Below, one piece after another: positions 3,511 through 24,298 of a stretch of 24,959 nt of DNA. Source of the stretch: a virus; the IMG/VR virus record IMGVR_UViG_3300025645_000427, positions 1 through 24,959 of that record, one strand, 5' to 3'. The notes beneath the pieces are model-generated. The model saw only the letters and a program-made list of their open reading frames with translations, did no database searches and had not been told where the DNA came from. Each line of letters opens with the position of its first letter. Positions within the stretch are counted from its first letter, which is position 1. The position numbers and the translations under genes are program-made.

Positions 3511-3999
3511 ATGAGTATAACAGAATTAATAATAAAAGATAAAGTTTGTATTAACTATGCTAAAAGTTTAGCAGGAGATGACTACAAAGACTTACTTAGT
3601 GATGCTATCGAGAAGATACTAAGCCTAGAGAATAAAGGAAAGGTATTTAACAATAAGTATAAAAGTTATTTTTATCTAACTCTTAAAAGTGTATTAAACG
3701 ATAAGTACAGAAAAAAGAAAGTTAAAGAAGTTGAGTTAAAACAACAACACCTAGAAATGAAAGAAGAAACAAATAGTATAAGCATACATCAAAAGGTATT
3801 GGAAAACTTTTTATCTACTAAGTTCAAAGACGAGAAAGAACAGTTAGCACAAGTAATAACAGAGCTTAGTCTTAGAATGGATAAAAAAGAAATAGCCGAA
3901 AGAACTGGATACTCTAAAGAGTTAGTTTATCAATACCTAAACATAGCAAAAGAACTAATTAAAGATGAATACAATAGAGTTATATTTAATAAGCGTTAG
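3511..3999 (+). CDS. Phage sigma-70-like factor, 162 aa
   Basis: The protein has the two-part layout of a small sigma factor. Residues about 12-70 resemble region 2 (NYAKSLAGDDYKDLLSDAIE, then an aromatic/basic YKSYFYLTLKSVLNDKYRKK stretch). After a charged linker, residues about 118-152 form a helix-turn-helix like region 4 (MDKKEIAERTGYSKELVYQY). It probably binds host RNA polymerase and directs it to phage late promoters. It begins a transcription unit from the canonical host promoter at 3473-3503, so the host enzyme can transcribe it first. The ATG at 3511 is preceded by only 7 nt after the -7 box. Its 3' end overlaps the next gene by 35 nt. Anti-sigma or other RNAP-binding roles are alternatives. 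Confidence 0.65.
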   Translation: MSITELIIKDKVCINYAKSLAGDDYKDLLSDAIEKILSLENKGKVFNNKYKSYFYLTLKSVLNDKYRKKKVKEVELKQQHLEMKEETNSISIHQKVLENFLSTKFKDEKEQLAQVITELSLRMDKKEIAERTGYSKELVYQYLNIAKELIKDEYNRVIFNKR

Positions 4000-22399: not shown

Positions 22400-22875
22400 T
22401 GATTAAGAGTGAATTAAAAGAGTGGTTTTATAACTTTTGTGTAAGTTTTAAAAAAGAAGTTTCTATATTAATAGTAACTATAATAACATTTTTAAGTCCT
22501 ATACACGGCTTATTTATAATAGTGGGTAGTATGGTTATGATTGATACTTTTTACGGAGTGTATGCAAGTATAAAGCTTAAAGGGTTGAGGTCCATTACAA
22601 GTCATAATATGTTTAATTTAGCCGTTAAAACTTTCTTTTATATGGGTTCTATATTAATTGCTTTTTTAATATCAAAGTATATGTTTGAAAGTAAGCTTAT
22701 GGGTATTTCTTACTTAGTGCCTAAAGCCTTGTGTGGTTTTTGGGTTCTAATGGAGTTAAAGAGTATTGACGAAACGAGTATAAAACTAGGACATAAGCCA
22801 GTTATAGACATTATAAAAGATATAATAGCAAAAGCAAAGAGTTTTAAAAAGGATTTAAACGAACTGAAAAAGTAA
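22399..22875 (+). CDS. Holin, 158 aa
   Basis: The product has about three membrane segments: residues 22-40 (ILIVTIITFLSPIHGLFIIV), about 42-56 (SMVMIDTFYGVYASI), and about 78-96 (FFYMGSILIAFLISKYM), possibly with a fourth weak one near 105-118. A conserved phage-holin-family feature is the MxDTxxGxxAS...LK...S segment (residues 48-66). It is followed by a charged, lysine-rich cytoplasmic tail. It would permeabilise the inner membrane at lysis. It sits directly before the DUF5675 gene and spanin-like pair, consistent with a lysis cassette. Confidence 0.72.
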   Translation: MIKSELKEWFYNFCVSFKKEVSILIVTIITFLSPIHGLFIIVGSMVMIDTFYGVYASIKLKGLRSITSHNMFNLAVKTFFYMGSILIAFLISKYMFESKLMGISYLVPKALCGFWVLMELKSIDETSIKLGHKPVIDIIKDIIAKAKSFKKDLNELKK

Positions 22876-23360
22876 TGTTAAGCAAACTTATAAAACAAGC
22901 ATTAAAAGGATTTAAAAAGCCTATGATATTAAAGGTAGTTAGATACAGACATTTAAAAGACCGTACAATAGGTAAACTTTATATTAATGATGTTTTTGAG
23001 TGCTACACTTTAGAAGATGCGGAAAGAGAGGTTAAGGTATGGGGGGAAACTTGTATACCTTTAGGGACTTATGAATTGAAGTTAAGACAAGAGGGAAGCT
23101 TTAATATAAGATATACTAAGAAATTTCCAGACTTTCACAAAGGTATGTTGCACGTTACTAACGTAGACAACTTTAAATATATACTTATTCATATAGGCAA
23201 CTTTATTAAAGACACTGCTGGTTGTTTATTAGTTGGCAAAGAGGTTAACGAATTAGAGAATTTAAGCCGTTCAACAGATGCTTATAAGCAAATGTACCAA
23301 AAGGTTATTAAAGGCTTTGAGAACGGACAAAAAGTATATATAACTTATGAAAACGAGTAA
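22875..23360 (+). CDS. DUF5675-family protein, probable lysis cassette enzyme, 161 aa
   Basis: Motifs of DUF5675 are clear: RTIGKLYINDVFECYTLEDA, GETCIPLGTYELKL, then ILIHIGNFIKDTAGCLLVGK. The conserved His, Asp and Cys in IHxGNxxxDTxGC are reminiscent of L,D-transpeptidase-like catalytic arrangements. The family occurs in phage and prophage lysis regions, but its reaction is not established to my knowledge. Located between the holin and the spanin-like genes, it is the only candidate endolysin here. It overlaps the next gene by 14 nt. Confidence 0.7.
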   Translation: MLSKLIKQALKGFKKPMILKVVRYRHLKDRTIGKLYINDVFECYTLEDAEREVKVWGETCIPLGTYELKLRQEGSFNIRYTKKFPDFHKGMLHVTNVDNFKYILIHIGNFIKDTAGCLLVGKEVNELENLSRSTDAYKQMYQKVIKGFENGQKVYITYENE

Positions 23361-23577
23361 CATTATAATCTTAGTTTTAGTATTGTTTAATATTTATTTG
23401 CTATTTTCGATAAGTAATAAAGAAACTACAACAGTTATTAATAATCATTACACTATCCAAAAGGATAAAATACTCAAAGAATATGAAGTTAAAAAAGACA
23501 GTATTAAAAACTATGTTATGCCTTTGCCTAGTGATACCGTTTACAAGTTATACTCAGAGTGGCTTAATAACAGATAG
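23347..23577 (+). CDS. i-spanin-like small membrane protein, 76 aa
   Basis: One N-terminal transmembrane segment (IIILVLVLFNIYLLFSI, residues 6-22) is followed by a roughly 50-residue, charged, coiled-coil-like periplasmic part (YTIQKDKILKEYEVKKDSIK) ending WLNNR. The layout equals that of Rz-type inner-membrane spanins, at the usual place after the endolysin-type gene. The start of the next gene lies inside this one in another frame, again as in Rz/Rz1. No sequence family was recognised, so the call rests on topology and position. Confidence 0.5.
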   Translation: MKTSNIIILVLVLFNIYLLFSISNKETTTVINNHYTIQKDKILKEYEVKKDSIKNYVMPLPSDTVYKLYSEWLNNR

Positions 23578-23821
23578 TATAAAAACATATACCTTTACAG
23601 ATGTACAAATTAGTAAAATGTTTATTGCAAGTTTGGAGCTTGATGCTTGTAATAAGACAGTGGTTGATTTATCTAACTTAATAGACTCAGCACAATTAAA
23701 GATTAATACTTTAGATTACGTTATACACGAGAAGAGTAAAAAGATAATAACCTTAAAGAAGTGGCGTTCTATTGGTTTAAGTTTTGGAGTGGTTGGATTA
23801 TTATTTGTTATATTCACATAA
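23483..23821 (+). CDS. Secreted/membrane protein overlapping the i-spanin-like gene, 112 aa
   Basis: The gene starts 95 nt before the end of the upstream gene, in a different frame. It has an N-terminal signal peptide (KKTVLKTML, a Cys/Leu/Val core, then IPFTSYTQ, cleavage likely near residue 25). A periplasmic helical region follows (about 26-90) and a C-terminal transmembrane helix (WRSIGLSFGVVGLLFVIF, about 94-111). It lacks a clear lipobox, so it is not a classic Rz1 lipoprotein. It may be the partner of the i-spanin-like protein in disrupting the envelope. The strong RNA promoter at 23804 overlaps its last codons. Confidence 0.5.
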   Translation: MKLKKTVLKTMLCLCLVIPFTSYTQSGLITDSIKTYTFTDVQISKMFIASLELDACNKTVVDLSNLIDSAQLKINTLDYVIHEKSKKIITLKKWRSIGLSFGVVGLLFVIFT

Positions 23822-23834
23822 ATAGTTATATTTG
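23804..23834 (+). promoter_or_regulatory. Perfect Bacteroidota promoter (TTTG-N19-TATATTTG)
   Basis: TTTG (23804-23807), exactly 19 nt, then TATATTTG (23827-23834) is a full match to the consensus TTTG-N19-TAnnTTTG and the strongest promoter in the window. No ORF follows; it probably drives the RNA from about 23838. Confidence 0.8.
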
Positions 23835-23837
23835 CAT

Positions 23838-24262
23838 AACAGTAATTACAATACCTCTTAATAATGTGTCCCAGTGTAATTCTTTTAACTAAATGCTCTT
23901 TGATTATATGATTAACAAGATTTAAAACCATACGGGGCTGGTAGGTCGTTTGCATAATTGGCATCTAGTGACTAAAGGAAATTTAAAACTGATTCAGCAG
24001 TTAGTTAATTAATAGATGTAAGTCGAAAGGAGTTACCACAGTTGCAACTGTAATAAGCGTAAACCTTACCCTACTGAAAAGGCAAAGAGCATTTTATTTT
24101 GTTTATTAAATAATTATACATACCTTCACAAAGTCATCACGTAGTCCTTTCATAAGACTTGAAAGATTAACTACTAGGTAGGGTAATTAAATACCTTAGA
24201 TATTTTTTTATGTAACTCTACTGTTATACTGCCCTAGTCATTAAATTGGTTAGGGTTTTTTT
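23838..24262 (+). ncRNA. Large structured noncoding RNA of unknown class (about 420 nt)
   Basis: A 477-bp stretch without a credible ORF starts just after a perfect promoter and ends in an intrinsic terminator. Complementary segments: 23836-23844 with 24219-24227 (9 bp, closing the ends), 23844-23850 with 23875-23881 (7 bp), 23891-23902 with 24083-24094 (12 bp, enclosing 180 nt), 23987-23991 with 23998-24002 (5 bp), the 14-nt palindrome at 24038-24051, and 24066-24074 with 24178-24186 (9 bp). The last crosses the 12-bp helix, so it is a pseudoknot or an alternative fold. The exact start is inferred from promoter spacing. I cannot match it to tmRNA, RNase P RNA, group I intron or a riboswitch. 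Confidence 0.7.
24232..24262 (+). terminator. Intrinsic terminator of the structured RNA
   Basis: CCCTAGTC (24232-24239) pairs with GGTTAGGG (24248-24255; two G-U pairs) around the loop ATTAAATT, followed by seven T residues (24256-24262). It works on the + strand only; the opposite strand has no T-run after the stem. Confidence 0.75.
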
Positions 24263-24298
24263 CGTACGATATATAAATAAAAATTAAAAATAATACAG

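Follow-up and report, generated by a model that had tools for sequence, protein, structure and literature searches.

Untranslated RNAs are ordinary in flavobacteria: Flavobacterium psychrophilum has 586 transcribed regions located 3' of coding genes, with a median length of 108 nt, and 85 independent ones, with a median of 176 nt (PMC9723704). The −7 box of flavobacterial promoters, TAnnTTTG, is located at −12 to −5 (PMC9723704). The segment described here, from a virus whose host group is inferred solely from the promoter type and distant relatives, resembles the 3' and independent (Indep) classes of these small RNAs (PMC9723704) in that it is non-coding, follows directly after a coding gene, has a sequence match to a sigma-A-type TAnnTTTG promoter of its own at the end of that gene, and finishes in an intrinsic terminator; limited conservation is also common to both. 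It differs in that it belongs to a phage, is predicted from sequence, and, at ~424 nt, is longer than either median.

A second point of comparison is provided by the large RNAs ROOL and GOLLD of phages and prophages, which, like the segment, are non-coding stretches in phage genomes outside the structural genes. These RNAs often occur near tRNA islands. The segment is the shorter, as one example of ROOL measures 659 nt and many GOLLD RNAs exceed 800 nt (PMC12286853), while tmRNA and RNase P RNA are of similar length to the segment (about 350–450 nt). Unlike any of these classes, the segment has no match in Rfam: a cmscan search of the segment to an E-value of 10 returned no ROOL, GOLLD, tmRNA, or RNase P RNA, and a permissive search of both the segment alone and the entire virus record returned sub-threshold matches only, of which those at the 3' end were driven by the terminator. 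The original prediction, which proposed an unrecognised structured RNA, had named such a search as its check, and no known class was found. As a control, an Rfam-type model, which recognizes the conserved catalytic core, recovered RNase P RNA in 20 of 20 Bacteroidia genomes. ARAGORN identified neither a tRNA nor a tmRNA, with its tRNA-like domain and tag reading frame, in the 24,959-base virus record, the whole of which was analyzed and is referred to as the window; the window has no end repeats and is therefore probably a fragment.

The gene order of the window runs from a packaging, head, and tail block to a holin (PF05105), a DUF5675 protein, and two small overlapping ORFs, after which the rightward lysis genes face a leftward gene across a long gap (Table 1). 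All other gaps in this otherwise tightly packed phage are 160 nt or less, based on the layout of ORFs of at least 50 aa. The packing is thus unusual at this one position, and something besides protein is probably encoded or needed there.

Table 1. Features of the segment and its flanking genes, in window coordinates
Feature	Position	Strand	Remarks
112-aa gene ending the late/lysis block	23483–23821	+	From the ORF list; overlaps the preceding small ORF
Bacteroidota-type promoter consensus, TTTG-N19-TATATTTG	23804–23834	+	P 0.0086 against shuffles of the surrounding sequence
Non-coding gap between convergent genes, 477 nt	23822–24298		Between rightward lysis genes and leftward gene
Predicted untranslated transcript, ~424 nt	23839–24262	+	Predicted from promoter and terminator
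Domain closed by perfect 12-bp helix (23891–23902/24083–24094)	23891–24094	+	P 0.03; pair probability 0.67–0.98
Perfect 14-nt palindrome, ACAGTTGCAACTGT	24038–24051		Near middle of gap; chance level
Intrinsic terminator, 10-pair stem, 6-nt loop, T7	24231–24262	+	Stem probability 0.82–1.0
Convergent gene, 183 aa	24299–24850	−	C-terminal HTH_3 (PF01381, E 5.6e-11)

Several observations can be made for the neighboring proteins. The overlapping small ORFs (76 and 112 aa; 23347–23821, plus strand) occupy the spanin position and have membrane-like N- or C-termini, and neither has a family match, which for the 112-aa protein covers Pfam, PHROG, and NCBIfam; the order after the holin and the DUF5675 protein suggests that the 112-aa protein is spanin-like. 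The DUF5675 protein itself (22875–23360, plus strand) is placed between the holin and these ORFs. In the same region the syntenic relatives carry, as judged by eye, an amidase-like protein (L097) and a peptidase-like protein (L065), both putative cell-wall enzymes, which suggests that the DUF5675 protein acts as a lysis enzyme. The N-terminal half of the convergent 183-aa protein resembles, by eye only, a GIY-YIG nuclease domain, and searches of viral contigs with this protein and the 112-aa protein identified no relatives. Upstream of the terminase genes, a 162-aa protein (3511–3999, plus strand) weakly resembles sigma-70/ECF factors (TIGR02937, E 1.1e-7, below the cut-off) and is a candidate phage sigma factor for the late genes.

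The absence of a credible ORF over about 420 nt, as originally proposed, was confirmed. The longest plus-strand stop-to-stop frames within the gap are 21–40 aa, the longest frame with a start codon beginning inside the gap is 20 aa, and six pieces of 28–82 aa had no credible match in Pfam. A hidden gene was rejected on this basis, and the same lack of family matches argues against the remains of a decayed gene. Decayed-gene remains or an element acting at the DNA level, such as an operator for an HTH protein, a packaging site, or a recombination site, together form the least probable explanation considered, at a very low likelihood. The palindrome noted in the original prediction is present, and its position, combined with the HTH gene that adjoins the gap, would be in keeping with such an element. 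However, it is not improbable by chance as had been assumed, since 8.5% of shuffled versions of the gap contain a 14-nt palindrome and the window has 2 versus 3.1 expected; even with up to 3 mismatches allowed, the window contains no further copy, and the HTH gene has its own start at the far side (24850).

The promoter-like sequence and the terminator were both found as originally described. The TTTG element is located at 23804–23807 and, after the 19-nt spacer, TATATTTG is located at 23827–23834, such that the −33 box falls within the last codons of the 112-aa gene; based on the position of the flavobacterial −7 box, the start site would be ~23839. A plus-strand match with a spacing of 18–20 occurs in 0.86% of 20,000 shuffles of the surrounding 200 nt. 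At the other end, the terminator hairpin (24231–24256) is followed directly by T7, and it is the sole terminator in the window to pass a strict filter that requires 6 or more pairs, 4 or more G-C pairs, and T6. A promoter-to-terminator non-coding unit spanning most of the gap is thus plausible.

The best-supported reading, which we consider moderately probable, is that the late operon has its 3' boundary and terminator in this segment, which plausibly also gives rise to a lineage-restricted untranslated transcript, either independent or of the 3'UTR type. The terminator would end rightward late transcription (structural and lysis genes) before the leftward HTH gene, and the predicted sigma-A-type promoter overlapping the 3' end of the last lysis gene could start a separate transcript of ~424 nt that uses the same terminator. 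Polymerase arriving from upstream would make the segment part of the late mRNA as well, as its 3' UTR. This reading is supported because the promoter match has the appropriate place and strand (P 0.0086), the terminator is the only strong one, the segment is non-coding, the next gene is convergent, and the folding is shuffle-like. Weighing against it, a promoter match of this type is expected by chance about once per 25 kb (both strands, spacings of 17–21), the 12-bp helix has a P of 0.03, and a plain terminator region would be expected to occupy a shorter gap. What the sequence itself shows is the promoter-like sites, the terminator, and no credible ORF in between; transcription of the segment, separate from that of the late mRNA, and any role for the RNA are what we infer.

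The first of these reservations bears directly on a simpler explanation, in which the segment only provides the late mRNA with a long 3' UTR and a terminator; the promoter match would then be accidental, with no separate RNA produced. We regard this as the less likely account, but one with an appreciable chance of being correct. With spacings of 17–21 on both strands, the whole window has 3 promoter matches versus 1.2 expected (a count reached in 14 of 100 shuffles), the other two lying within coding sequence or at its edge, and a generic sigma-70 scan of this part of the window shows no excess (16 versus 16.7). The nearest relatives by gene order, L097 and L065 (capsid protein 64–66% identical), have different lysis enzymes and reach a same-strand gene 42 and 78 nt, respectively, after the gene in the spanin position, with the segment absent. 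Conversely, an accidental match would have to fall directly at the border of the largest gap and on the right strand, and 400 nt of untranslated sequence is unneeded in a compact phage. As the segment is lacking in L097 and L065, it is outside the shared core of this phage group.

The original prediction went further and interpreted the segment as a new class of functional RNA that is large, folded, pseudoknotted, strongly expressed, and closed at its ends, and we consider this very improbable. A long non-coding stretch with a promoter and a terminator would be in accord with such an RNA, but the stability of the fold is not. The minimum free energy of −84.1 kcal/mol corresponds to a z-score of −0.33, with 29 of 100 shuffles at least equally stable, whereas the mean z-scores of control genes from Bacteroidia were about −1.9 for tmRNA (10 genes) and −2.9 for RNase P RNA (8 genes). 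Only 2 of these 18 controls have a z-score as high as the candidate, and the other 16 surpass it in stability when each is compared with its shuffles. The control is informative, but not sharp, and across 14 phage windows the z-scores ranged from −3.6 to +0.7, with 8 below the candidate. Local 110-nt windows were at the phage background except for the terminator (−2.6). Folding of a single sequence does not take pseudoknots into account and overlooks some real RNAs (2 of the 18 controls), and the structured-RNA reading is therefore unsupported as opposed to disproved.

The long-range pairings on which that reading was built are present as inverted repeats at 23836–23844/24219–24227, 23891–23902/24083–24094, and 24066–24074/24178–24186, though the argument that they are unlikely by chance was not upheld. 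In 300 dinucleotide shuffles of 23837–24262, at least two helices of 9 bp occurred in 22.7% and the longest helix reached 12 bp in 3%; among 116 phage windows, a 12-bp helix occurred in 2 and the count of 9-bp helices was matched in 14. The 12-bp helix, spanning a distance of 180 nt and stable in the ensemble, is mildly unusual, having been found after looking at many features, and it is the feature that most favors a folded RNA. The repeat proposed to join the 5' and 3' ends has uncertain pair probabilities of 0.42–0.56 and retains 6 bp inside an RNA starting at ~23839 (7 bp with the start of 23838 given originally); part of this helix is upstream of the predicted start, and it therefore cannot close the RNA as drawn. 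The crossing helix at 24066–24074/24178–24186 has a pair probability of 0.02, in a nested model that cannot combine it with the 12-bp helix, and the best duplex between the two halves of the segment is ordinary (P 0.56).

The search for relatives of the segment was similarly without result. Nucleotide searches returned pieces of 22–45 nt in phages and plasmids, pieces of 14–28 nt in 50 viral records reached via terminase, portal, capsid, and tail proteins, and matches of up to 34 nt in 395 Bacteroidia genomes and three orders. A covariance model of the most stable sub-domain (23938–24039) gave no credible matches in 55 fetched loci or 198 genomes. A 17-mer, AAGTCGAAAGGAGTTAC, suggested by a 33-nt match in L135, was dropped because its only match in a viral contig was on the antisense strand of a coding gene. 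ROOL and GOLLD RNAs have extensive covarying secondary structure; for the segment, with no homologues to align, the comparison is confined to single-sequence folding, which is no more stable than that of shuffles. It should be noted that failure to find the segment elsewhere carries little weight, because the collections lack close relatives of this phage and the genomes are only a sample of the class; the lack of homologues in the collections searched, which the original prediction had named as counting against it, does so in a weak sense only. A version of the folded reading that allows for this, in which a new class of ~424-nt phage RNA with long-range helices, the pseudoknot at 24066–24074/24178–24186, and its own late-infection promoter would occur in one unsampled lineage, is very improbable. 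A folded new RNA class is possible, with its positive support limited to the helix at P 0.03; the large, end-closed, pseudoknotted, strongly expressed RNA as first proposed is unsupported when the shuffle-like folding, the ordinary long-range pairing, the lack of homologues, and the syntenic relatives without the segment are combined.

Returning to the late-operon boundary with a possible untranslated transcript, any action of the RNA would most likely occur through base pairing, or as antisense to the convergent transcript, and not as a large folded machine. The longest perfect complementarity to the mRNAs from the rest of the phage is 13 nt, equal to the sense-strand control.

The earlier case for a structured RNA fails under shuffling, and the analysis serves as a caution that, in 400 nt of AT-rich sequence, perfect inverted repeats of considerable length come close to chance expectation. 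Should the transcript exist, it would be another orphan untranslated RNA in a phage of the Bacteroidota, a group in which phage RNAs have been little mapped.
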